Origin: Leptolyngbya sp. CCY15150
GTDB lineage: Bacteria; Cyanobacteriota; Cyanobacteriia; RECH01
NCBI RefSeq assembly: GCF_016888135.1
Contig: NZ_JACSWB010000150.1
Span: 1 to 35,912, forward strand
DNA: 35,912 nucleotides
Direction of reading: 5' to 3'
Below the pieces are notes generated by a model. The model did not search any database. It saw only the letters and a program-made list of their open reading frames with translations, and was not told where the DNA came from. Both the position numbers and the translations under genes were made by a program. This document shows, piece by piece, positions 2,475 through 15,627 of this stretch (position 1 is its first letter; each line of letters begins with the position of its first letter).

Positions 2475-4229
2475 TCATTCGTTGGGGAGGACGCGCTCAA
2501 AACCGCCTGCTAGACCGCGATTGGGCTGGCGTAACCGCACTTCCCATTCTAGTGGCCCAAGGGCGCAGGGGTTGGGGGCATCCCAGCACAGATCAACGCC
2601 TACATCAATGGGATGAACATAGGATATATCCTGCATTTGTGCCGTGGTCACCCTTGCGGAGGGGAGAAGGGGCGGTAGGAGTAGGTTTGGGTAGCCACGG
2701 ACGGTGGTCACCGCTGCGATCGCTGCCACTAACCCCACAGATATCCATGGCCATTGTTTGCCTAGCTGTAGTCCTGGTCGGGGGAGGCGCTGCCAGCGGG
2801 GTTCAATCCAGGCGTGGCCGAGCCAAGCGATCGCCATGGCTGGAATCAGAATGAGGTAGCCCAGACCAAAGCGAATCAGGGGCGACAAGATGAGGGTGAA
2901 GGCGCTGCCCAATAGTCCTAAAGCACTCACCCAGATGGGCCCACGGATGACGGCGCGGTAGGGCGATCGCCACCAGCGATGGAGCAGTAACATGGTCGCC
3001 ACCGTTGATAGAAGACCTAAGCCAAGGAGCAGCTTATTGGTGATGCCGAGGGAAATCCATTCCCGAAACACCCAGGGCAGCCAAGGTGTACCTTCGGGGG
3101 GTGAACCAAACCAAAGCTGCCAGCCATGGATCTGGGCGCGGGCTTCTTCGCCAGCATCTTGGGGGAGGCTCCAGGGCAAGTCGAGACACATGACGGAGGA
3201 GGGATAGAGAGGGCAGCCGGAGGTCAGCCAGCCAAAGATCGTCATCGGTAACAGAATGATGGTGACTAGCCCTAGTCCTACCAGGAGCGATCGCGGTTTT
3301 TGGTAGTGGCGTCCTACAAAAAACAGGCCGCCGATGGCTAGCAAGGGTAATCCGCTGAGCTTGACTGTGACGGCCACGGCACCTAGGCCAAGAATGACAA
3401 AGGCTAGGCCATCAGCGGTCATGGGATTCTGTTCGTCGCTGATTAGCAGGAAGCTCGATAGAAGAATGGCCAGCAGGATGATGGGGATATCAGGAGATGG
3501 CGATACGACAATCTCCATCATCAGAGACGAGCCAAAGAATAGGGCAATCAGCAGTCCTAAGCTACTGGCTCCAAACCAGTCTGGAATGGTTGCTTTTGAA
3601 GACACAATCCGCGTTAGAGCTGCCCAGCCCTGCAGCAGCAGCAGCCACAGCAAAAATCCATTGGCGATCGCTGTTCCCCGTCCATCCAGGATCACGGGGT
3701 TGAAGGGGGCTGCTAGGGCAAACCAAGACGAGGCAAAGCCAAAGCGATCGTGGATTAGGGCTACACCGACGACGGTGCCGTAGTCGGCCAGCCAGCGAAT
3801 GGTGCCGTAGTGATATAGGCCTGTATCAATCCAGGTGACGGGCTGCACGGTGGCGGCGGCGGCGAGGAGGGCCAGGGCTCCCATCCCTAGACCTTGCCTC
3901 CAGCCGATGGCTTGCCTGAGAGTTTGTAGGTCATGGCGTACGGAGGTTTGTCTGAGGGCGATCGCCGCTAGACCGCCTCCCACCGCTAAACCGACTAGGG
4001 GCGACAGGGGCACCCATAGGCTAATGGAAAAGAGAGCGATCGCCACTCCCAATACCCCCAGCCAAGTGATCAATACCGCCTCGGGTTGAAAAGGGCACAT
4101 TAACCGATGGGGATGGGGTACATCCTCGGGTACGCAGGCAAGACGAACGCCGGCCCGATGCGCTAACCCCAGACCAATGGGTAAACACAGCAGCAACAGC
4201 AGAGCCCACATCACCAAAAAGTAGAGCAT
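2475..4229 (-). CDS. Polytopic membrane protein, LIC_10190-like / GT-C-like
   Basis: A 584-residue protein with roughly a dozen hydrophobic segments. The N-terminus inserts directly (MLYFLVMWALLLLLCLPIGL). A soluble, partly periplasmic stretch around DTGLYHYGTIRWLADYG (about 133-150) carries acidic and His residues, as in the first loop of GT-C enzymes. The C-terminal 70 residues are soluble and contain three Cys (CWDAPNPC). The pattern fits the LIC_10190 family of large membrane proteins, often found in surface-polysaccharide loci. I infer a polyprenol-phosphate-sugar-using transferase or another envelope glycan step, but no catalytic motif proves it. It is the last gene of the 15.6-2.5 kb polysaccharide run, 69 bases after the glycoside hydrolase gene. 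Confidence 0.7.
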   Translation of the reverse strand: MLYFLVMWALLLLLCLPIGLGLAHRAGVRLACVPEDVPHPHRLMCPFQPEAVLITWLGVLGVAIALFSISLWVPLSPLVGLAVGGGLAAIALRQTSVRHDLQTLRQAIGWRQGLGMGALALLAAAATVQPVTWIDTGLYHYGTIRWLADYGTVVGVALIHDRFGFASSWFALAAPFNPVILDGRGTAIANGFLLWLLLLQGWAALTRIVSSKATIPDWFGASSLGLLIALFFGSSLMMEIVVSPSPDIPIILLAILLSSFLLISDEQNPMTADGLAFVILGLGAVAVTVKLSGLPLLAIGGLFFVGRHYQKPRSLLVGLGLVTIILLPMTIFGWLTSGCPLYPSSVMCLDLPWSLPQDAGEEARAQIHGWQLWFGSPPEGTPWLPWVFREWISLGITNKLLLGLGLLSTVATMLLLHRWWRSPYRAVIRGPIWVSALGLLGSAFTLILSPLIRFGLGYLILIPAMAIAWLGHAWIEPRWQRLPRPGLQLGKQWPWISVGLVAAIAAVTTVRGYPNLLLPPLLPSARVTTAQMQDISYVHPIDVGVDLCWDAPNPCALGPLEWEVRLRQPNRGLAGGFERVLPNE

Positions 4230-4298: not shown

Positions 4299-5819
4299 TC
4301 AGTTGAGAACGGCATTGGGCAGCGGTGCGGCTGGGATGACGGCCAGTTGGCTACTGTAGGCAGGCAACGTAAGGCGCAGTTCTCCTTGGGTGACAGCGAG
4401 AGAGGCGATCGCTTCGTCTTGCACCCGTTCGCTAAACTCCCAAAGCGTTCCCGTGCCATCGCTAACTAGGGCGGATAGATCGACGGCGAGGGTATGGGCT
4501 TGGGGCTGATCATTCACCAGCAGCAGATTCACTTGGTTTTGGTCGTCTCGGGTGGCGATCGCCATCACCGCGTCATCACTGATCCCGGCTAACAGCACCG
4601 GTCGCCCGCCCTGGAGGGCGCGAGTACCCATCCGCAAGGCATAGTAGCTCAGGCGGCGATGTCCTTCTGCATCAATTAACCCGGCAAAGTCTCCCCGCCC
4701 CCAGTCGTACAGAGAAAACAAGTGGCTGCCGTAGACGTAGGTGTCTCCCGGTTGCGACATGCGAATCATATTTTTGATCAGATTCAAGGAAAAGGAAAGA
4801 TCATCGTAGCCGTCGGTATAGGTGCCCCATTCTCCCAGCCACAGGGGCGATCGCTCATGGATGGTTCCCTGCATCCAGCCGCGTACTTGACGCACATAGG
4901 CGGAAATATCCCAATCATAGTTATGAACATTGACCTGATCAAAGTACGTAGGAATGGCGTCTAATGTATCTGCGGGCCATAGACTATGTCCTATAGTTTT
5001 CGGTGCATGAATATGAAAGTCTCGTCCCGGTAGATAGGTTTGGTAAACATGGGCGATCGCATCGGCTCCTACGCGAGCCAGCTCAAAATAATCGGCTTGA
5101 TTGCCCCCCCAACCCTGCTGGCGATTATCCGGCTCGTTGTGCAGTTCAAAGTCATCCACCTGATAATCATGACGCACATTCAGCCAGTAGACCGTAGCAA
5201 ACACATGCTGCCACCATTCATTCCAATCTGCTTCTGTACGTGGTGGATTGAGTTGCAGTGCCCAGTCTGGATCCCAACCTGGATCGCTATTGCGCAGGGT
5301 GAGCACCGGACGAATATGGGCCTCTTTCAGGGTTGACAATAGCGTGCTGGCGCTGCCTTGCCACAGCTCGGCCGGATCACCTGAAAAGGCATAGTCGCTG
5401 CCGCCTTCTGGCTGGGTCATCACCCGATCCCACCAATCCCAGTTAACCACATCGGGGTTAGCCTTAATCTGAGCAATGGAGGGATAGCCATAGATGCCAT
5501 CATCGTCCTCGGTTTCCCAGCGAGACATGCCCCCATAGATACGATAGGTGTTGAGCCCTAGGTCTTCTAGGTCAGATAGGTTAAAGTCTACATTTCCTTC
5601 ACAGGCTCCGATATACTGGGTACTCGCACCTAGGGAGCGATCGTATAGTTTTAAGGTGGCGATCGCTGGGCTCGTTTGATCAGCAAGCGCTAGCTCCGTC
5701 ATCCCGCCCGCTAGCATCAGTCCTAACCCTAGCAAAAATGGCAGGACACCCTTCACTAGGATTCGTCCTAGCAGTCTCCAGATAGATGGATGGCGGATAA
5801 TCTGCGAGACGTTCATCAT
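4299..5819 (-). CDS. Secreted clan GH-A glycoside hydrolase (GH39/GH5-like)
   Basis: A 506-residue exported hydrolase. The start is the ATG pair at 5819/5816, which overlaps the TGA of the upstream methyltransferase gene (ATGATGA), giving translational coupling. A longer GTG start would run back into that gene. Residues 14-47 form a signal peptide or anchor ending near LALA-D. The mature part is a TIM barrel with HNEP (E229, predicted acid/base) and LGEWG (E330, predicted nucleophile), the two-Glu arrangement of clan A retaining enzymes. A C-terminal beta domain of about 90 residues follows. The closest layout I know is PslG, a GH39-type enzyme in Pseudomonas exopolysaccharide clusters. It probably trims or edits the exported polymer outside the cytoplasm. 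The exact GH family is uncertain. Confidence 0.82.
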   Translation of the reverse strand: MMNVSQIIRHPSIWRLLGRILVKGVLPFLLGLGLMLAGGMTELALADQTSPAIATLKLYDRSLGASTQYIGACEGNVDFNLSDLEDLGLNTYRIYGGMSRWETEDDDGIYGYPSIAQIKANPDVVNWDWWDRVMTQPEGGSDYAFSGDPAELWQGSASTLLSTLKEAHIRPVLTLRNSDPGWDPDWALQLNPPRTEADWNEWWQHVFATVYWLNVRHDYQVDDFELHNEPDNRQQGWGGNQADYFELARVGADAIAHVYQTYLPGRDFHIHAPKTIGHSLWPADTLDAIPTYFDQVNVHNYDWDISAYVRQVRGWMQGTIHERSPLWLGEWGTYTDGYDDLSFSLNLIKNMIRMSQPGDTYVYGSHLFSLYDWGRGDFAGLIDAEGHRRLSYYALRMGTRALQGGRPVLLAGISDDAVMAIATRDDQNQVNLLLVNDQPQAHTLAVDLSALVSDGTGTLWEFSERVQDEAIASLAVTQGELRLTLPAYSSQLAVIPAAPLPNAVLN

Positions 5820-6946
5820 AGTGAGTCCATAGGCAACGGTTGATCGGATGACCAATGTAGAGGCGGATGGAGGAGGCCTTTTTGAGAAGGAGAAGACTGA
5901 ATCTCTAAGGGATACTGATGCCACTGAAAGGCATAGGTTGCTTCCCAGTCTGGCGAAAAAATGCCGGGATTAATAAAGTAAGTCCCTTGCGCTAGATCTA
6001 GTCGCTCAATATGTAAATCCAGGGTATGCGGAACGGTGATATCTGTCGGCAATGGGTTGATGATGATTTCTGTATCTAGATAAATGTGACCTGATGCATC
6101 ACTGAGACTGATGGTAAACAGAGCAGACTCTAGGGACGCTTTCAGTTGATAGTGAATGGTAATCGTCACGCGATCGCCACAATGGAGTTCCGCAGGATCC
6201 AAGGTCACATCCAGAAGCTGAAGAATAGGAGATGCCCATGGTTCAGGGGGCTCGTCTGCGGGTGGAGGCGATGAGTCGATACATTTTTGTAGATAGATAG
6301 TTGGATGGACGATCGCTTTTGGATGGGCTGGGGCGATCGCTTCTAGGTGAGGATAGGCAGAAAGGCGATCGCCTTTGACAAATATGAAACTATTTTGGGC
6401 GTACCAAGGCTGCACGGCCGGATCCTCCCAAAGGCGATCGCGCAGAATATCTAAAACCAGATAATTATGGGACTGAAAGCGCTGAATCCAATAGTCTGGC
6501 CATTGCTCGTTGACATGGTGGGTGCCGCCCTGGTGGGGAATGGCTGCTGAAAATAGAATCACATCACTGAGTTGAACCAGGGATTCCACAAAGCGATCGG
6601 CGCTCTCCTCGGACAAATGCTCAGCCACTTCTAGGGACAGAGCCAGGTCAAACCTGCGTTCAAGCTGAATAGGCTGGCTTAAATCGGAGGCGACAAAGCA
6701 GTCTTGGGGAATTTGTAACGTATCTGACTGAACATAGTCGCCATCCAGTCCCAAGATATCGTTCACTCCCTCAGACTGAAATACCGACAGCCAGGATCCA
6801 TCCCCACACCCCACATCAACTACACTCGTAGGCTGGATCCACTGCAAGATTAAAGGTACGATAACCTGGGCAGACTGGCGTGAACCCTCTCGTAGGGCTT
6901 CAAAAAACTCGGGGTCATAGAGTTCTGGGAGTATAAGTTCAGCCAT
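5816..6946 (-). CDS. Class I methyltransferase fused to a Wzt-type C-terminal glycan-binding domain
   Basis: A 376-residue two-domain protein. Residues 1-200 are a SAM-dependent methyltransferase: motif I VVDVGCGDGS at 42-51, acidic LDGD at 67-70, and DLALSLEVAEHL at 100-111. A Pro-rich linker (227-240) leads to a beta-sandwich of about 125 residues. That domain matches the end of the neighbouring ABC ATPase: RLDL (315-318), YF (323-324), DW (333-334), WH (342-343), YPL (345-347), KG (356-357) and PPLxW (361-365). All are offset by exactly 38 from the ATPase. The gene lies 28 bases downstream of the ATPase gene and overlaps the hydrolase gene by 4 bases. I infer that it methylates the exported glycan, perhaps as a chain cap. 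The methyltransferase and the domain homology are direct readings; the capping role is inference. Confidence 0.85.
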   Translation of the reverse strand: MAELILPELYDPEFFEALREGSRQSAQVIVPLILQWIQPTSVVDVGCGDGSWLSVFQSEGVNDILGLDGDYVQSDTLQIPQDCFVASDLSQPIQLERRFDLALSLEVAEHLSEESADRFVESLVQLSDVILFSAAIPHQGGTHHVNEQWPDYWIQRFQSHNYLVLDILRDRLWEDPAVQPWYAQNSFIFVKGDRLSAYPHLEAIAPAHPKAIVHPTIYLQKCIDSSPPPADEPPEPWASPILQLLDVTLDPAELHCGDRVTITIHYQLKASLESALFTISLSDASGHIYLDTEIIINPLPTDITVPHTLDLHIERLDLAQGTYFINPGIFSPDWEATYAFQWHQYPLEIQSSPSQKGLLHPPLHWSSDQPLPMDSL

Positions 6947-6974: not shown

Positions 6975-8222
6975 TTAAGGAGTAAGCGATCGCACCCCAT
7001 CTCCCACAACCTCCCAGCGTAGAGGGGGGCGTAAGATGCCCTTAGAGGGAAGGGTCGTATTCACCGTCAGCGGGTAAACATGCCAGTGGTAGTCATAGGC
7101 ATAGCTCCAGTCTTGCTTATACAGCCCCACATCTACAAAATAGTTGCCGCCTCGTAGATCCAGGCGATCGAGGTTCAGCCGAATTGTTCCCTGTTCCTGC
7201 AGCCGCACGCAGGGAATGCCTGTATCTAGGGTGTTGACGTCTAAACAGGTTTCGCCACTGTCTTGACTGATCGTGACGCTAACAATAGCGCTATCCACGG
7301 GTTGACGGGTTTCATAGTCTACCTCAACACAGAGGGCTGCGCCAGATTCCAGGGTGGCTTGGGGTAGCAAGCGCACCGCTGTGATCTCCGCTTCTAGGGA
7401 ACCAAAGCGATTTTCATTGACCCGTAACTCTGTCCCCGCCGCCGTTAGCTGTACCGGACGCTGGGGGGTGCGCTGCTGGGTTTGCGATCGCATCTCCATC
7501 GTATATTGCCCCGCTACCACCGACGGTTCACCGTAGGCCACCACGGTGCCATGCTTGAGCCACAGGGCGCGATCGCACAGCCGCTCTACCTGCCCTACGT
7601 CATGGGATACCAGCACGATAGCGCAGCCCTGATCTTTCATATCAGCAATCCGATTCAGGCATTTCGACTGAAATGATAGATCTCCCACAGATAAAAACTC
7701 ATCCACGAGTAAAATATCTGGATCGGTATGCACAGCAACGGAGAAGGCTAGGCGCATCATCATCCCAGTGCTGTAGGTGCGCACAGGATTATCGATAAAT
7801 CCTTCTAGTTCGGCAAAGTCTACGATACGATCAAATCGTCGAGCCACCTCGCGGCGGGGTAGGCCAGCTACAATCGCGGTCACAAACACATTTTCTCGCC
7901 CTGTGAGGTCACCATGGAAGCCAGCCCCCAAATCTAGGAGCGCTCCAATGCGCCCTCGCATTTTGACCCGTCCCTCGGTGGGATAGGCAACCTGACCTAA
8001 GATTTGCAACAGGGTTGATTTTCCAGCGCCGTTGTGGCCAATCACCCCGATCATTTCTCCCGCCGCCACCTCAAACGACACGCCGCGCAAAGCCCAGAAC
8101 TTTTCCACAGGCTTAATGCGTCGTAGCCCCGACAAGGCCGCTTCCATAAAGGTCACGGGCTTCTCGGTATGGTAGCGACTAAAGTCTTTCCCCAAATTCT
8201 CTACTAGAATAGCGTCGCCCAT
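6975..8222 (-). CDS. wzt: Polysaccharide ABC exporter ATP-binding protein (Wzt/TagH-like) with C-terminal glycan-recognition domain
   Basis: A 415-residue ATPase of the O-antigen/teichoic acid export type. Walker A is GHNGAGKST (62-70), the signature is YSTGMMMRL (150-158), Walker B is ILLVDE (170-175), and the switch His is H206 in SHD. Residues 245-275 are a Gln/Arg-rich linker, and 276-405 form the Wzt C-terminal beta-sandwich that in E. coli O9a recognises the modified end of the polymer. The ATG overlaps the permease stop by one base (TAATG), so the two subunits are translated together. It powers flipping or export of a lipid-linked polysaccharide across the inner membrane. The presence of the C-terminal domain implies that a terminal modification is read before export. 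Confidence 0.93.
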   Translation of the reverse strand: MGDAILVENLGKDFSRYHTEKPVTFMEAALSGLRRIKPVEKFWALRGVSFEVAAGEMIGVIGHNGAGKSTLLQILGQVAYPTEGRVKMRGRIGALLDLGAGFHGDLTGRENVFVTAIVAGLPRREVARRFDRIVDFAELEGFIDNPVRTYSTGMMMRLAFSVAVHTDPDILLVDEFLSVGDLSFQSKCLNRIADMKDQGCAIVLVSHDVGQVERLCDRALWLKHGTVVAYGEPSVVAGQYTMEMRSQTQQRTPQRPVQLTAAGTELRVNENRFGSLEAEITAVRLLPQATLESGAALCVEVDYETRQPVDSAIVSVTISQDSGETCLDVNTLDTGIPCVRLQEQGTIRLNLDRLDLRGGNYFVDVGLYKQDWSYAYDYHWHVYPLTVNTTLPSKGILRPPLRWEVVGDGVRSLTP

Positions 8223-9025
8223 TAAATCTCCTCCACAAACCGTAGGCTCTGATGTTTGAAGAGCTTATAGCCAATGGGCATCAACACAGCGATCGCCCCG
8301 GCGATAATCGCTAAGGCTAGCCAATCTGGCTGAGTGCCCCAGATCAGAATTTGTCGATAGCAGGTAACGATATGCACCATGGGGTTGAGACCATAGATAA
8401 ACCAGTAGCGATCGGGGATGCTGCCTAGTTCATAGAAGATGGGCGTTAGGTAAAACAGAAACTGTAGTAAAACGCCGAGGGTGTGCTGAGTATCGCGAAA
8501 GGTGACGTTGAGGGATGCGAGGAAGTAGGAGAATGTGACGGTGAGGGCAAACTGAATGATTTGCAGCAACGGTAGGGCCAGCACAACGGGGGTTAGCTGC
8601 ACGCCGTCAATCAACAGAAAGACAACCAGCACTGGCAGTGCCAATATAAAGTGAATGAGCCCGGTTGTCACCACCACTATCGGCAAAATGGCGTTGGGGA
8701 AGCCAGGCTGACGAATCAGAGGACGACTGCTGATAATAATGCCCGTGGCTTGAAAGAGAGAGTTCTGAAACCAGTTCCACACCAAGAGTCCCGTAAAAAC
8801 ATAGGATGAATATTGGGGAATATCCATCTTGATGATTACCTGAAAGACAAAGATAAAAACCAGCAGTTGCAGCAGTGGGCTAATCAACGTCCAGGCAATA
8901 CCTAGGGCCGATCGCTTGTACATGAGCTTCATGTCTCGATCCACAAGCGATCGCAGCAGATCCCATAGATAACTCAGATGGCGGGGCGACAGAGCCCGTC
9001 GTGATAGCCTAGGCTTTCCTATCAT
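8222..9025 (-). CDS. wzm: Polysaccharide ABC exporter permease (Wzm/TagG-like)
   Basis: An ABC-2 family permease of about 267 residues. A cytoplasmic amphipathic N-terminus carries LWDLLRSLVDRDMKLMYKRS, the usual gate-helix region ahead of TM1. Six hydrophobic segments follow, the last ending at KLFKHQSLRFVEEI. The motif LTPIFYELGSIPDRYWFIYGLNP is the conserved end of ABC-2 exporters. It pairs with the ATPase encoded immediately downstream (1-base overlap). I place the start at the ATG at 9025; an in-frame TTG at 9034 would add three residues, and an out-of-frame ATG at 9038 is not usable. It sits directly after a hairpin (9065-9100) that separates it from the glycosyltransferase genes. Confidence 0.92.
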   Translation of the reverse strand: MIGKPRLSRRALSPRHLSYLWDLLRSLVDRDMKLMYKRSALGIAWTLISPLLQLLVFIFVFQVIIKMDIPQYSSYVFTGLLVWNWFQNSLFQATGIIISSRPLIRQPGFPNAILPIVVVTTGLIHFILALPVLVVFLLIDGVQLTPVVLALPLLQIIQFALTVTFSYFLASLNVTFRDTQHTLGVLLQFLFYLTPIFYELGSIPDRYWFIYGLNPMVHIVTCYRQILIWGTQPDWLALAIIAGAIAVLMPIGYKLFKHQSLRFVEEI

Positions 9026-9064
9026 ATCGGTCAACCATAATGAAGGTGAGAGGGAAAGTCTGTC

Positions 9065-9108: not shown

Positions 9109-11793
9109 CTAGGATACGTTACTAGAGGCAGGAACAGTCGATGCAGAAGCTTGGGATAGCCCATGACTGGAGAGCGATCGCTCCTGAACAGGGATGAAAG
9201 GAGCGCTATGCCCTTCCCGCTTCACGCGCTGATGAGATTTCCAAAGCGACCAAGGGCCAGCTAAGTTACCACGTATTTCTAGCCAAATCAGCGAAAGGGG
9301 ATAGTCACTACGCTTCAGAAGATATTCCTTAATCCGGTAATAATGGGCGTAGGGCAGTCCTAGCAGCACCTGGGCTAAGCCTCGCCAGTCTCCATCCCGC
9401 AGCCAAGTGGTTAGGTTGTAGGAGACATGCCCTTTGCTGTAGCCATAGAGCTGACGTTCTAGAGCTTGGCGAGTTTTGCGATGCTTATGCCAAACAAAGG
9501 CTTTGGGATTATACACAATGGTATAGCCTGCCTTTAAGACTTTATAGAAGACGTAAGTATCTTCGCCAACGCCTGATGGCATTCCTGGCCCTAATGCTTC
9601 ATCCATCAAGCCAATGTCAGGATGATGAAAAATACTGGCGCGGAAGGCTGCATTAGCCGTTGCTCCCAAAGACCATGTGGGAGACGGCTTATGGGGAAAC
9701 AGGTCGTACCAAGAACCGTCCACTTCAAACGGTTCAAATCCACGACCTAGACCGCCATAGTTTTCAAAGGCTTGCTGGGAAGCATCTTCTAACTCAATGG
9801 GTAAGACATTGCCATTGACAATCATCACATCTGGACGGGCAAAGGGAGGAATGAGACGTTCAATCCAGTCTGGCGGGACGGTTACATCATCATCTGTGGC
9901 AATTAAGATGTCGCCACTACTGGCGACAAACCCAGCATTGCGCCCGTAGGCCAAACCTTGGCGGGATTCCTGCACCAGCACCACGCCCGGAAAGTCTTGC
10001 ACGACTGGAGCCGTTAGTCCAGAGTCTGGATGATTGTCCACCACCACAATTTCTACTGAACGGTTAGTTTGCTGGGCTTGTAAATGCTGAAGACAGTTGC
10101 GTAGGTCATCGGGGCGATCGAAGGTGGCTACTACAACCGACACGGACACGTCATCAGGTAGCTTAACCGGTTCATCTCGCTCTGCTAACCCATAGCCTTG
10201 AGCGATCGCTTTCACGGCTTGTGGCCATACTAAATCGCTGACGGTGCAAGCATCTAAATCTAGCAACTTGCTACCAAACTGATTAGCAATTAATTTGCTT
10301 AGGGTAAGAACAGATACGTTATTAAATTCATTCTCGTAGTCAAGGTGACCTAAAGGGCTATTGTCCCTGCTTATGAAGATCCGAACCTTAGAATAGGTTT
10401 CTAGATCCTTCAAGGCAGCTAAAGGCTGACTCAGTTCTACTTGGCGGATAGCGATCGCCCCTGAGTCATTGGCAGGGGGCTGAGAGGAGGTTGTCGGTCG
10501 GTAGCGAATGGGCAAGGCTTCTTCTGTTTGCCATCCATGTTCCTGCACAATGGCAGCTACCCGCTGAGTTGCCTTTTGATAGGACGAAAAGCCGGCAAAA
10601 GCTCCTCGGAATTCTGCTAAGACTAGATCTTTTGGGAATTGAGTTCTGTGTAGAGATGAGACGATGGTGCGCCGCACATTCCAATACAGCATCCACCAAA
10701 CGCCAATTTTTAGGCAGGATATCCATAGATCAGGATAGGCGATCGCTAAGCTAAGCCAGAGGGCATAGAGACTGCCGTTAAAGGAAATTTGCCGTTTTAG
10801 CTGAGCATACTCGCGGCGATGGCGATGGCGAATCATCGCTCGCGGTTCATACACCAGAATATGTTCAGATTTAATGATCCGAATAAACATCTCTAGGTCG
10901 CCGCCGCCATTGGTGGGCGTTCCTACATCGAGGGCTGGATCAAAATAGCCAATTGTTTCAAAGATCGATCGTCGATAGGCCATGTTGGCTCCGGTGCCAA
11001 ACTGACCAGCTCCCAGCCACTGCCAAGGCATGGGCTGACCAGGGGCGACTTGATACCATATCTGTTCGAAGCCGCGTCCAAAACCGCCATAGTCTTCAAA
11101 TAAGACTTGAGCTTCTGTTTCTAGCTCATAGGGTACTACTAGCCCTGTGACGGCCATAATCCTGGGATTTTCGGAAAATGTGCGGGCGATCGCCTTCACC
11201 CAGCCTCGATCGACCACCACATCATCATCTGTGTAAGCAATGATCTCTCCCTTGGCTTCCAAAATGGCGCGATTGCGGGCCCAGTCTAGTCCGGGTCGTG
11301 GTTCACGCACATAGCGCACTTGGGGATAGTGGGCGTCTACGAGATCTTTCGTGCCTTCGGTGGCCGGGGCATTATCGACCACGAGAATCTCTAGGTTGGG
11401 ATAGTCGAGCTGGACAATAGCTTCCAAACAACGCTTCATATCATCAGGGCGATCGCGGGTACAGACCGCTACGGTCACCATCGGCCAGTCGTCCACCACC
11501 TCCACTGGCGGTAGGTTTACCAACGCTTCAAGGTTGAGATCCTCTGGCCGCTGGGGAGCTGCTAACCCGTTCTTGAGCAATTGGCAGATAATCGCCCAAC
11601 TGTGTTGCTCTAGGATCAGTTTACCGAGGGTGGCCGCCGTGCAGCATCCTAGGGAAATGGGTGCTTTGACATAGCCAAGCGGTACGCCATGCAGGCGGAC
11701 GAGCCCCTGCAAACCCATATAGTTTTCCAGTCCCTCGAAGGTGGGGATGGGCTGGCTGAGTTCGATATCAACAACTTTGATGGGAAACAGCAT
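9109..11793 (-). CDS. Tandem double GT2 glycosyltransferase
   Basis: An 894-residue protein made of a two-part unit repeated twice. Each unit has a small N-terminal module (ELSQP at 11 and 453, PLG at 38 and 480, both exactly 442 apart). A GT2 domain follows (VTVAVCTRDRPDD and VSVVVATFDRPDD; DDD metal/nucleotide-sugar motif at 189-191 and 634-636; YGGxGRGFE in both). Each GT2 domain ends in RHRHRR or WHKHRK plus a helical tail. Both DDD motifs are intact, so both domains may be active, making two linkages or an alternating repeat. The ATG at 11793 is preferred to 11799 because AGAGG then lies at good spacing. The gene starts 10-16 bases after the stop of the preceding GT2 gene. Cytoplasmic, using NDP-sugars; specificity unknown. 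Confidence 0.9.
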   Translation of the reverse strand: MLFPIKVVDIELSQPIPTFEGLENYMGLQGLVRLHGVPLGYVKAPISLGCCTAATLGKLILEQHSWAIICQLLKNGLAAPQRPEDLNLEALVNLPPVEVVDDWPMVTVAVCTRDRPDDMKRCLEAIVQLDYPNLEILVVDNAPATEGTKDLVDAHYPQVRYVREPRPGLDWARNRAILEAKGEIIAYTDDDVVVDRGWVKAIARTFSENPRIMAVTGLVVPYELETEAQVLFEDYGGFGRGFEQIWYQVAPGQPMPWQWLGAGQFGTGANMAYRRSIFETIGYFDPALDVGTPTNGGGDLEMFIRIIKSEHILVYEPRAMIRHRHRREYAQLKRQISFNGSLYALWLSLAIAYPDLWISCLKIGVWWMLYWNVRRTIVSSLHRTQFPKDLVLAEFRGAFAGFSSYQKATQRVAAIVQEHGWQTEEALPIRYRPTTSSQPPANDSGAIAIRQVELSQPLAALKDLETYSKVRIFISRDNSPLGHLDYENEFNNVSVLTLSKLIANQFGSKLLDLDACTVSDLVWPQAVKAIAQGYGLAERDEPVKLPDDVSVSVVVATFDRPDDLRNCLQHLQAQQTNRSVEIVVVDNHPDSGLTAPVVQDFPGVVLVQESRQGLAYGRNAGFVASSGDILIATDDDVTVPPDWIERLIPPFARPDVMIVNGNVLPIELEDASQQAFENYGGLGRGFEPFEVDGSWYDLFPHKPSPTWSLGATANAAFRASIFHHPDIGLMDEALGPGMPSGVGEDTYVFYKVLKAGYTIVYNPKAFVWHKHRKTRQALERQLYGYSKGHVSYNLTTWLRDGDWRGLAQVLLGLPYAHYYRIKEYLLKRSDYPLSLIWLEIRGNLAGPWSLWKSHQRVKREGHSAPFIPVQERSLSSHGLSQASASTVPASSNVS

Positions 11794-11808
11794 AGACATC
11801 CTCTAGAG

Positions 11809-12900
11809 TTAGATGCGAGATAATAACCAGTGCAAACTAGTGCCAACCAACAATTTGAAGCGCAGACGAAAACTCTGAACCGGAGCTGTAGCAAAGATGG
11901 AATCTAGAATCGAATCTAGATCTGATCTAGGGCGATCGCTCCCTAGATCTTCCGGTGGCACACAGACCATGGGCGACAGCAAGCCCTTGTGCTGGAGCCA
12001 ACTGAGGAGGGCCAGCCGATAAACGCCCAAACGACCTAGGGGTGTGAGGGGATCGATGGCGATCGCCCGCCGAATCCAGTCCAAGCTAGCCTGAGGTAGC
12101 CCATACTGAAAACTTTGTTGCGCAAAGTAAACATAGAGGCTGCTGGCAGACAGGCGGTACAACCAGCCGGATATCTCAGGATGCTTGTCTTGCACTCGTT
12201 GGAGAATGAGCTGGTGAGACTTCGCCATTTGGTTGAAATCTCCCGACATACTGCCCACCGTCTTACGATAACCCACCAAAAAAGCGGGTACCACGCAAAA
12301 CTCGCAGCAGTCTGCCAGGCGTAGGTACAGATCCCAATCTTCACACCCTTGGGCCTGCTGGGCCCGCAGGTGCGGGTCATAGCCACCGATGAGATCCAGG
12401 TAGCGCCGGCGAATGAGAGTAGCGCTGGCATTGCCAATAAAATTGTGGCAAATCAGGGTGGCTAACACCGGCCCCGCCACCGTTGCCGCCCGAAATTGCC
12501 CCGTCGGCTGACTATATTGATCGATATCGACCGACCAGGCATAGGCCACCCCGGCCGTTTCCCCGTGGGCCACCAACGCGGCTAAGAGTTTTGCCAAGGT
12601 CTGGGGATGCCACAGATCATCGGCATCAATGGGGGCAATGAACTCCCCCTGGGCTTGGGCGATCGCTGCATTGCGGGCCGCTGCCACGCCGCCGTTGGCC
12701 TGCTGGAGAATCCTTACGCGGGGATCTCCGTTGGCCACAGCTTGGGCGATCGCCACCGTGTCGTCCGTTGAACCATCGTCTACAATCATCACCTCCATCT
12801 GGGGATAGGTTTGGGCTAAGACTGAGGTGAGGGTTTGGGGAAGCACGTCAGCGGCATTGTAGGCCGGGATAATCACGGAAATTAGGGGATCAGGGGGCAT
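11809..12900 (-). CDS. GT2 family glycosyltransferase
   Basis: A 363-residue enzyme. The GT-A domain begins at once (ISVIIPAYNAADVLPQTL), has VDDGSTDD for nucleotide binding, NGGVAAARNAA, and the DADD metal-binding motif, with ED in GCEDWDLYLRL as the likely catalytic-base region. The last 110 residues are helical with a TPR-like unit (ASLDWIRRAIAIDP), common in polysaccharide GT2 enzymes. It sits 34 bases after the oxidoreductase gene and just ahead of the double GT2 gene, so it is part of the same transcription unit. It adds a sugar to a lipid-linked glycan; donor and acceptor unknown. Confidence 0.9.
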   Translation of the reverse strand: MPPDPLISVIIPAYNAADVLPQTLTSVLAQTYPQMEVMIVDDGSTDDTVAIAQAVANGDPRVRILQQANGGVAAARNAAIAQAQGEFIAPIDADDLWHPQTLAKLLAALVAHGETAGVAYAWSVDIDQYSQPTGQFRAATVAGPVLATLICHNFIGNASATLIRRRYLDLIGGYDPHLRAQQAQGCEDWDLYLRLADCCEFCVVPAFLVGYRKTVGSMSGDFNQMAKSHQLILQRVQDKHPEISGWLYRLSASSLYVYFAQQSFQYGLPQASLDWIRRAIAIDPLTPLGRLGVYRLALLSWLQHKGLLSPMVCVPPEDLGSDRPRSDLDSILDSIFATAPVQSFRLRFKLLVGTSLHWLLSRI

Positions 12901-12934: not shown

Positions 12935-14395
12935 TCAGCTAAATTTAAGCTGGTTGGAGACCGATGCAACGTCTGGAGATCCTGATCCCGACTGCTGAAA
13001 CTCTTCGTAGTAGGAGCGTTCGGTGTTCACCGTCCATAGGGAATGGCGATCGCCTAACACATTACGAGCAGCGAGCAGCCCCGTGAGCATGGAATGATCC
13101 TGATTGTTGTACCGGTGCATGCCATTACGTCCGACGGTGTATAGATTGTCGAAGGTTTCGACATAATCTTGGATCACCTGGAGGTGCTGCCGGTACTCCA
13201 CGTCGTAGACCGGATAGGCCTTGAGCTGTCGAATCACCGTACCATCTTGCACCAGCTTAGGATCGCTCACCAAACCCAGCTTCACCACCTCTTCCGTGGC
13301 TAGTTTGATCAGGGTCTCTTCCGAGGATTCCCAAACCGAGTCGCCCTGGCTACAAAAATATTCCATCCCCAGACAGGTTTTACTGGCATCCGGCACCATG
13401 TCCGGGCTCCAGTTTTTGAAGTTTTGGATGCGTCCCACCTGAAATTCGGGGCTGTGGATATAGAGCCAGTTGTCGGGAAACAAGGAGGGCGCGTCGATCA
13501 CCAAGGCTACGATCAGAAAATCTCGGTACTTCAGAGATTTGGCAGCCGTCAATACTTCTGGCGGCGGCGGCGGATTCAGGCATTGCAGCAGCTTGGTCAC
13601 GGGCATACTGGAGATAAATTGATCCCCTTCATAGATCTGGGTTTCACCGTTCTGCTCAGCGATAACCCGCTGAATGCGCTGCCCTTCCCGATCGATCTGC
13701 ACGACGCGGGTGTTGAGATGCACCGGACTGCCTTGCTTTTCTAGCAGGGTTTGAAACCGCTCCCACATCATGCCTGGCCCTAGGCGAGGATATTGGAAGG
13801 TTTTAATCAAGGTCTTGGCGTCACTTTTGCCAAACAGGGCATCGGTGATGGCTTTCTTCAGCGATAGACCGCGAATACGTTGAGCCGCCCAGTCGGCGCG
13901 GATTTGCTGACAGGAAATCCCCCACACTTTTTCGGTATAGGTCTTGAAGAAGGTATAGTACAGCTTCTCGCCAAAGCGATTAATCACCCAATCTTCGAGA
14001 CTTTCTTCTTCGGGTAAGGGAGAAAGTCTCGCTTTTAAGTAGCTGGCGACAATCGATAAACTACGGCCAATCCCTAGTTTTTTGACCACATCGAAGGGAT
14101 CAAGGGGGTAGTTAAAAAACTTGCCGTCATAGTAGATGCGCGATAGCCGTGGCACGGTGATCATCTCGTCGCTGAGCACCTCCTGCCAAAGATCCTCAAC
14201 CTCGGTCACCTTGGTGTAGAAACGGTGACCGCCGATGTCAAAACGATAGTCCTTATAGGTTTCAGTGCGCGAGATTCCCCCAACGCGATCGCCACTTTCA
14301 AGCACCACAGCAGGACGTTGGTGTTTTGATAACTCATAGGCCGCGGTTAAACCCGCTGGCCCTGCACCCACAACGACAACAGGATTCAAACTCAT
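12935..14395 (-). CDS. FAD-dependent oxidoreductase, UDP-galactopyranose mutase-like
   Basis: A 486-residue flavoprotein. An N-terminal Rossmann FAD motif, VVVGAGPAGLTAAYEL (7-22), is followed by ES-G-D-R-VGGISRT, the GGxxR-type flavin contact of the amine-oxidase/mutase superfamily. Further on are IGGHRFYTK and, near the end, YTVGRNGMHRYNNQDHSMLTGLLAARNVLG, the C-terminal FAD-binding signature. This group is repeatedly found in cyanobacterial and other polysaccharide loci. Its members resemble UDP-galactopyranose mutase but are longer (mutases are near 370-400). In this context, next to galE, an action on a nucleotide sugar or a lipid-linked sugar is likely. A desaturase or amine-oxidase-type reaction cannot be excluded. 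Confidence 0.8.
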   Translation of the reverse strand: MSLNPVVVVGAGPAGLTAAYELSKHQRPAVVLESGDRVGGISRTETYKDYRFDIGGHRFYTKVTEVEDLWQEVLSDEMITVPRLSRIYYDGKFFNYPLDPFDVVKKLGIGRSLSIVASYLKARLSPLPEEESLEDWVINRFGEKLYYTFFKTYTEKVWGISCQQIRADWAAQRIRGLSLKKAITDALFGKSDAKTLIKTFQYPRLGPGMMWERFQTLLEKQGSPVHLNTRVVQIDREGQRIQRVIAEQNGETQIYEGDQFISSMPVTKLLQCLNPPPPPEVLTAAKSLKYRDFLIVALVIDAPSLFPDNWLYIHSPEFQVGRIQNFKNWSPDMVPDASKTCLGMEYFCSQGDSVWESSEETLIKLATEEVVKLGLVSDPKLVQDGTVIRQLKAYPVYDVEYRQHLQVIQDYVETFDNLYTVGRNGMHRYNNQDHSMLTGLLAARNVLGDRHSLWTVNTERSYYEEFQQSGSGSPDVASVSNQLKFS

Positions 14396-14604: not shown

Positions 14605-15627
14605 CTATGACACCGACGACAAGGAGCCATGGCGAACTTGGTGCCACTGCCAAGCATGGCGAATCATGTCATCGAGGTCGGGGTATTTGGGATCCCAACC
14701 CAGAACGGCGGCGGCCTTTTGACCACTGCCCACGAGGGCCGGCGGATCACCGGGTCGGCGATCGCACTCCACTGCTGGCACTGGACGCCCCGTCACCCGT
14801 TCTGTGGCTTCAATCACCTGACGCACCGAGAATCCACCGCCATTGCCCAAGTTAAAGATATCGCTATCTCCCCCCTTGAGCAGGTGTTCTAACCCCAAAA
14901 TGTGGGCATCGGCTAGGTCACAAACATGGATGTAATCCCGGATGCAGGTGCCATCATCTGTGGGGTAATCCGTGCCAAAGATCGATAGGGATTCTCGTCG
15001 TCCTAGGGCGGTCATCAAGGCCAGGGGAATCAGATGGGTTTCGGGATTGTGATCTTCCCCCAACCGCCCTTGGGGATCGGCACCGGCGGCGTTGAAGTAG
15101 CGGAAGCAAATGGATTTGAGGCCATAGGCGCTATCAAAATCCTTGAGGATTGTTTCCACCATCAACTTGGTTTGCCCGTAGGCATTGATCGGTGCCTGGG
15201 GATGGTTTTCCGGAATGGGGATTTCCTGGGGTACACCGTAGGTGGCGCAGGTAGACGAAAAGACCAGGCGCTTGACCCCCGCTGCCACCATGGCTTCTAG
15301 CAACGTCAAGGTACCGCTGACGTTATTGCGGTAGTATTTTGCCGGATTGGTGGCCGATTCACCTACGTAGGCGTAGGCAGCGAAGTGAATGACGGCGGCA
15401 ACGGAGTAGTCTTGAAACACTTGATCTAAGAGGGCGCGATCGCTAATATCGCCCACAATTAAATCGACGTTTAAAACAGTTTCAACCAGATCTCGATGGC
15501 CGTAGACTAGATTATCTAAGACCACAACGTGGTAGCCAGCTTGCTTTAATTGGTCAACAGCATGGGAGCCGATGTAGCCGGCTCCTCCGGTGACCAAAAC
15601 AGTTGGTTTTTGTGGCTGCATAGTCAT
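14605..15627 (-). CDS. galE: UDP-glucose 4-epimerase
   Basis: A 340-residue extended short-chain dehydrogenase. It has the NAD-binding TGGAGYIGSH (13-22), HFAAYAYVGES, catalytic SSTCATYG (S124/S125) and Y150-GQT-K154, then RYFNAAGADPQGRLGED, which is diagnostic for GalE, and RDYIHVCDLADAH. Length is typical. It interconverts UDP-glucose and UDP-galactose (or the N-acetyl forms) in the cytoplasm and supplies precursor to the transferases encoded downstream. An alternative ATG at 15621 would remove two residues. It is the first minus-strand gene of the polysaccharide locus, divergent from the lone GT2 gene at 16144. Confidence 0.94.
   Translation of the reverse strand: MTMQPQKPTVLVTGGAGYIGSHAVDQLKQAGYHVVVLDNLVYGHRDLVETVLNVDLIVGDISDRALLDQVFQDYSVAAVIHFAAYAYVGESATNPAKYYRNNVSGTLTLLEAMVAAGVKRLVFSSTCATYGVPQEIPIPENHPQAPINAYGQTKLMVETILKDFDSAYGLKSICFRYFNAAGADPQGRLGEDHNPETHLIPLALMTALGRRESLSIFGTDYPTDDGTCIRDYIHVCDLADAHILGLEHLLKGGDSDIFNLGNGGGFSVRQVIEATERVTGRPVPAVECDRRPGDPPALVGSGQKAAAVLGWDPKYPDLDDMIRHAWQWHQVRHGSLSSVS

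Follow-up and report, generated by a model that had tools for sequence, protein, structure and literature searches.

A double-GT2 protein of Leptolyngbya sp. CCY15150, candidate polymerase of an ABC-exported polysaccharide, carries two copies of a small module shared with other sugar-modifying enzymes

The 35,912-nucleotide contig of Leptolyngbya sp. CCY15150 analyzed here (the window) encodes an 896-amino-acid protein, starting with ATG, in which a module of ~70 amino acids and a GT2 domain each occur twice (Table 1). With moderate confidence, we regard this double protein as a bifunctional polymerase of an ABC-exported surface polysaccharide, its modules being shared accessory domains that position the chain or a partner. 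At the inner membrane, the two GT2 domains would take turns in extending the chain with different sugars or linkages, and export of the chain would fall to the neighboring Wzm-Wzt pair. The module would be an independent accessory domain common to the polymerases, deacetylase, methyltransferase, and sulfotransferase of the pathway and, as our best guess, would hold or position the chain or a common partner, allowing these enzymes to act on the same molecule. In this reading, the best supported of those considered, the polymerase role draws on analogy with Escherichia coli K4 chondroitin polymerase (K4CP) and Klebsiella pneumoniae O7 ORF6 together with gene order, while the job of the module as an accessory of the chain or a complex is read from its distribution, the binding partner being the least certain point.

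Table 1. Coordinates of the double protein, its parts, and its neighbors in the window, and of related proteins at other loci
Feature	Position	Strand	Basis
Double protein, module-GT2-module-GT2	9109..11799	-	ORF, Pfam, AlphaFold2
Module 1, residues 7-80, predicted beta-beta-beta-alpha, without a Pfam family	11560..11781	-	alignment, AlphaFold2
First GT2, about residues 106-340, DDD 191-193, D301 in GGGD	10780..11484	-	Pfam PF00535, conservation
C-terminal helices of first half (331-421); residues 354-376 are the protein's most interfacial stretch	10537..10809	-	AlphaFold2
Module 2, residues 449-512, predicted fold as in module 1	10264..10455	-	alignment, AlphaFold2
Second GT2, about residues 552-785, DDD 636-638, ED 746-747	9445..10146	-	Pfam PF00535, conservation
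Wzm-type ABC-2 permease, next gene downstream of double	8222..9034	-	PF01061, conserved neighbor
Wzt-type ATPase with Wzt_C domain	6975..8222	-	PF00005 + PF14524
Methyltransferase fused to Wzt_C domain	5816..6946	-	PF13489 36.6 bits, PF14524 33.1 bits
Ordinary GT2 gene, without module, directly upstream of double	11809..12900	-	Pfam
FAD-dependent oxidoreductase (PRK07208-type), same gene run	12935..14395	-	profile match
GalE-type UDP-glucose 4-epimerase	14605..15627	-	TIGR01179 458 bits, cutoff 262.3
Doubles with degenerate first GT2, later tandem gene	L079:10134, L090:9899, L100:8740, L107:7308, L119:5776, L136:4565, L143:7844		
~1200-aa GT2-M-M-methyltransferase-deacetylase proteins (M, module)	L074:6322-9840, L097:12013-15564, L083:6701-10273, L118:2146-5757	-, +, +, - (in order)	

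Two stretches of the double protein matched PF00535 (166.6 bits for the whole protein versus a cutoff of 23.3), and both domains contain DDD (residues 191 and 636) and catalytic acids (D301 and E746-D747), so that one chain holds two GT2 domains with intact motifs. We take these DXD and acidic residues to be the GT2 active-site motifs. Retention of DDD in both halves, pointed out in the first-pass annotation of this DNA, would fit an enzyme making two linkages of a repeating unit. The accessible text of one paper is also a source for the meaning of such motifs (PMC11231755). Among 59 doubles, most first halves and almost every second half conserve the DDD and acidic catalytic motif; in 11 of the 59, either an aspartate at one end of DDD or the acidic catalytic residue was missing from the first GT2, indicating that two activities are not universal, and second halves were degenerate in 2. 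Of the 11 doubles whose first half is degenerate, seven stand in the later position of a tandem set, and the retention of a dead first half hints at a structural role.

The first-pass annotation held that the small module ahead of each GT2 domain is duplicated as well, and this was borne out. ELSQP (residues 13 and 455) and PLG (40 and 482) both recur at a spacing of 442, the two halves align full length (BLOSUM62 score of 508 in self-alignment), and their N-terminal stretches align with a score of 75, compared with 25 ± 4 in 2,000 shuffles, none of which reached 75 (maximum of 49 or 58, depending on the boundary choice). Residue numbers in that annotation are 2 lower than ours because it started from the second in-frame ATG (position 11793), two codons inside the open reading frame. 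In the AlphaFold2 model of the full-length protein (39-row alignment; pLDDT 88.9, pTM 0.85), both N-terminal stretches folded confidently with the same predicted order of elements, namely strands 7-13, 29-36, and 39-47 and helix 55-80 in module 1, and strands 449-455, 471-478, and 481-489 and helix 497-512 in module 2. Modeled alone from a 54-row module alignment, module 1 reached a pLDDT of 94.2, with 10-residue blocks at 98 across residues 11-70. Since the module pair aligns and both copies are predicted to fold, the two stretches are neither unrelated nor disordered.

The module had been described as foreign to standard GT2 enzymes, in agreement with the absence of any Pfam match on residues 1-100 and 445-545. 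No Pfam family for it was found when 20 members were scanned with E values up to 1; two single-member matches (E = 0.11 and 0.19) were taken as chance, as were four matches to PDB sequences (best E = 0.75). None of 258 Foldseek matches to solved structures had an E value of ≤0.001, the best VIA fold match had a Z score of 4.4 with an rmsd of 3.8 over 63 residues, and the top fold matches in PDB (activating signal cointegrator, E = 0.11, followed by YTH domains) and among viral models (E = 0.13) were weak. This lack of a convincing PDB or viral fold match does not show that the module has a new fold. No description of the module was found in the libraries or the open literature searched, in which the shared module appears to be undescribed.

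Conserved signatures distinguish the copies across phyla, with K8, R35, and P47 kept in the first module and A8, R10, D23, and N48 in the second. Y27 is the only common aromatic residue, and the conserved aromatic face expected of many carbohydrate binders was not seen in the module. It had been proposed that the module binds either the membrane or an acceptor glycan. Membrane binding was rejected as the leading reading, given that residues 342-376, outside both modules, contain the segments most like a membrane interface and that the modules are charge neutral. A search with the module also found it in deacetylase, methyltransferase, and sulfotransferase proteins, and the tandem modules of such proteins in the same gene neighborhoods lend some plausibility to acceptor-glycan binding.

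Fold-search matches of the GT2 halves were GT-A enzymes, hyaluronan synthase and chondroitin polymerase among them. The nearest two-domain structures were E. coli K4CP/KfoC, which also gave the top sequence match in PDB, and heparosan synthase 2 of Pasteurella. Both synthesize alternating disaccharides and, like the double protein, have two GT2-type GT-A domains per chain. They share only about 17% identity with the double protein, and no relation of their N-terminal parts to the module was found by sequence or fold. K4CP (2z87; Z = 22.7 over 438 residues) matched domain by domain but not in arrangement, as indicated by the rmsd of 19.6; heparosan synthase 2 gave a Z score of 20.2 over 434 residues with an rmsd of 25.7. 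No assayed member of the module-GT2 family was found in the literature searched. In K. pneumoniae O7, ORF6 has two GT2 modules and is the O-antigen polymerase of an ABC-dependent pathway, as studied by mutating each DXD motif; these modules lie C-terminal to a methyltransferase-kinase and a coiled coil, and the accessible text of the paper contains no mention of the small module (PMC11231755). In the window, by contrast, a gene of its own encodes the methyltransferase, as a fusion with Wzt_C. Two-GT2 polymerases are already known from chondroitin polymerase and Klebsiella O7.

Among NCBIfam models, the GT2 part scored highest with MftF (TIGR03965, 207 bits), a mycofactocin glycosyltransferase described as a GT2 enzyme adding a glucose chain (PMC7491314). 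Membership was rejected, as the score was below the cutoff of 280 and none of 30 related genomes exceeded it; moreover, the best stretch starts at residue 92, and hence the profile does not cover the module. A phage family was likewise rejected on the grounds of just weak generic glycosyltransferase matches, and PADLOC gave no defense-system match.

The first-pass annotation described the protein as built by duplicating a two-part unit. The unit is duplicated, but the duplication was not made in the present protein: as judged from sequence comparison, the halves are ancient paralogues, found across phyla either within one protein or as two neighboring genes. In all 59 doubles, the first half was closer to first halves of other organisms than to its own partner. 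In a FastTree phylogeny of 255 units, one cluster held 58 of the 59 first halves, with one falling outside; a second held all 60 second halves together with 21 of the 26 downstream genes of close unfused pairs; and a third group held 19 of the 28 upstream genes of such pairs. Median GT2 identity in the 59 doubles was 39.8% within a protein, compared with between-protein values of 60.9% for first halves and 59.9% for second halves, and the corresponding module values were 18.3%, 38.0%, and 31.6%. These lower within-protein identities indicate that the two units split long before their present spread, and recent internal duplication was rejected on the FastTree clustering and the identity medians. 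First- and second-half identities over protein pairs were moderately correlated (r = 0.47), suggesting that the two halves are sometimes inherited apart or that they evolve at unequal rates. In a quick tree of 110 of 155 chosen rows, second halves agreed (D2, 31 rows, 4 changes), and first halves were less resolved (D1, 24 rows, 8 changes, with starred branches forcing 1). The genome of the double protein itself gave nine matches to it, one being the protein itself and eight covering GT2 stretches only, and no second copy of the whole module-GT2 unit was found there.

In the window, Wzm and Wzt lie beside the glycosyltransferase, the arrangement of an ABC-transporter-dependent pathway, with 74 bases between the double and Wzm. 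Both exporter genes were present in 50 of 56 nonredundant loci with a double, and Wzm lay within 600 bp downstream in 41 of the 56; the double would therefore most likely be the polymerase of the exported glycan. Outside doubles the link is weaker, the pair occurring in 23 of 73 loci with single units only (147 loci minus 15 duplicates, 3 having neither doubles nor singles; phmmer at 1e-8). At some of the loci counted as lacking the pair, the region ends at a contig or fetch boundary. The methyltransferase-Wzt_C protein perhaps caps the chain, sharing the glycan-binding domain of the exporter. The neighboring Wzt has a Wzt_C domain of its own, and matches resembling the methyltransferase-Wzt_C protein were seen in 10 of 147 loci, counting that of the window. 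The same gene run encodes a LIC_10190-family membrane protein (2475-4229, minus strand; 235.7 bits versus a cutoff of 100), and a 541-amino-acid protein with no Pfam or NCBIfam match (4299-5924, minus strand) recurs beside doubles in several cyanobacterial loci.

The module is also linked to enzymes of other chemistry. Tandem modules not followed by a family GT2 occur in GT2-methyltransferase-deacetylase and sulfotransferase-deacetylase proteins. The multidomain layouts with two modules in a row were GT2-M-M-methyltransferase (NodS-like)-polysaccharide deacetylase, GT2-M-M-deacetylase, sulfotransferase-M-M-deacetylase, and M-M-GT2-M-M (by Pfam for seven cyanobacterial proteins and by length and module profile for the rest), and similar proteins occur outside Cyanobacteria. 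The first layout places all five parts in one chain of ~1,200 amino acids. A tandem-pair profile matched 8 of 338 cyanobacterial genomes, 7 of which have module matches outside the tandem-pair protein, compared with 60 of the 330 others (Fisher P = 6e-5 for 7/1 versus 60/270, ignoring kinship of genomes, counting 67 other module-positive genomes, including a few weak matches, as unit carriers, and placing the second, unlisted match of the exception, G065, on its tandem protein, which has two modules). In all 7 genomes, the tandem-pair and other module genes lie on the same contig, 2.4 to 5.7 kb apart from hit to hit. Owing to its presence in other sugar-modifying enzymes encoded nearby, the module seems to be a component common to the enzymes of one assembly line.

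Tentatively, the module may found an unrecognized family that marks assembly-line enzymes of exported polysaccharides, serving polymerases, a deacetylase-methyltransferase, and a sulfotransferase as a common handle for chain or partner, duplicated or arrayed for tuning. To our knowledge, the way in which enzymes of ABC-dependent glycan assembly come to act on one chain has been worked out in no more than a few enterobacterial systems. Rulers made of coiled coils are described for such assembly (PMC11231755). If the handle reading is true, a small domain common to polymerases and tailoring enzymes over many phyla would offer a direct handle on enzyme-chain recruitment.

The same distribution would suit a module that contacts no sugar and instead docks onto a common protein partner (the exporter, the enzymes, or itself), thereby gathering a complex. 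The presence of the module in neighboring genes for chemically different enzymes, separate first- and second-module signatures as expected for two different contacts, the four near-identical modules in a row in Brocadia (see below), and the retention of degenerate first halves, chiefly at the later position in tandem sets, all speak for docking, which we consider possible though not favored, as these facts fit chain binding as well and no partner was found. A purely structural cap, serving folding or dimerization of the GT2 subfamily with no recognition role, seems improbable: the module does directly precede GT2 in most module-GT2 proteins, but tandem pairs also stand without a family GT2 behind them, beside sulfotransferase, methyltransferase, and deacetylase domains, and the four-module array likewise argues against a cap. 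Slightly less doubtful, yet still unlikely, is that each GT2 domain adds one different adaptor sugar once, with no polymerizing. Other GT2 genes of the run could then supply the polymerase, and the GT2 pair does occur as two separate genes; against this, the characterized two-GT2 fusions nearest by fold or setting are polymerases.

Other layouts included single units in neighboring genes and a tandem of two doubles; one gene (L155) reads module-module-GT2 and another (L278) GT2-module-GT2. In Candidatus Brocadia carolinensis (L254:4326-6664, plus strand), a module-GT2 unit is followed by four near-identical modules; a frame change lies inside this array, and a second family GT2 was not seen directly behind it.

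The module was detected in 68 of 338 cyanobacterial genomes (alignment A1, 20 rows; E ≤ 0.01). With alignment A5 (60 rows), it was found in 10 of 198 Actinomycetota genomes at 1e-4, one being the center genome, and in 11 of 151 Chloroflexota genomes at 1e-5, one being the center genome and another already known, while the center genome alone matched in the phyla of the gammaproteobacterial (299 genomes), verrucomicrobial (145 genomes), and Bacteroidetes (148 genomes) loci. A collection scan gave at least 77 loci, and the module was seen in 76 of 77 among the matches listed, which came from Cyanobacteria, Chloroflexi, Brocadia-type planctomycetes, KSB1, Verrucomicrobia, Gammaproteobacteria, Actinobacteria, Nitrospirae, Acidobacteria, Ignavibacteria, Gemmatimonadetes, Bacteroidetes, and a Defluviimonas, many of them metagenome assembled, such that the taxon label may be wrong for a contig. 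Among these matches, the module-GT2 unit is common in Cyanobacteria and scattered over about ten other phyla, which suggests horizontal spread. Actinoplanes AMIS_70450 and AMIS_70480, whose GT2 domains start near residues 205 to 214 according to the accessible text of the source (PMC13390465), might also carry the module. On a Gloeothece plasmid, three glycosyltransferase genes directly precede an ABC permease and ATPase, and two of these three genes matched the module profile.
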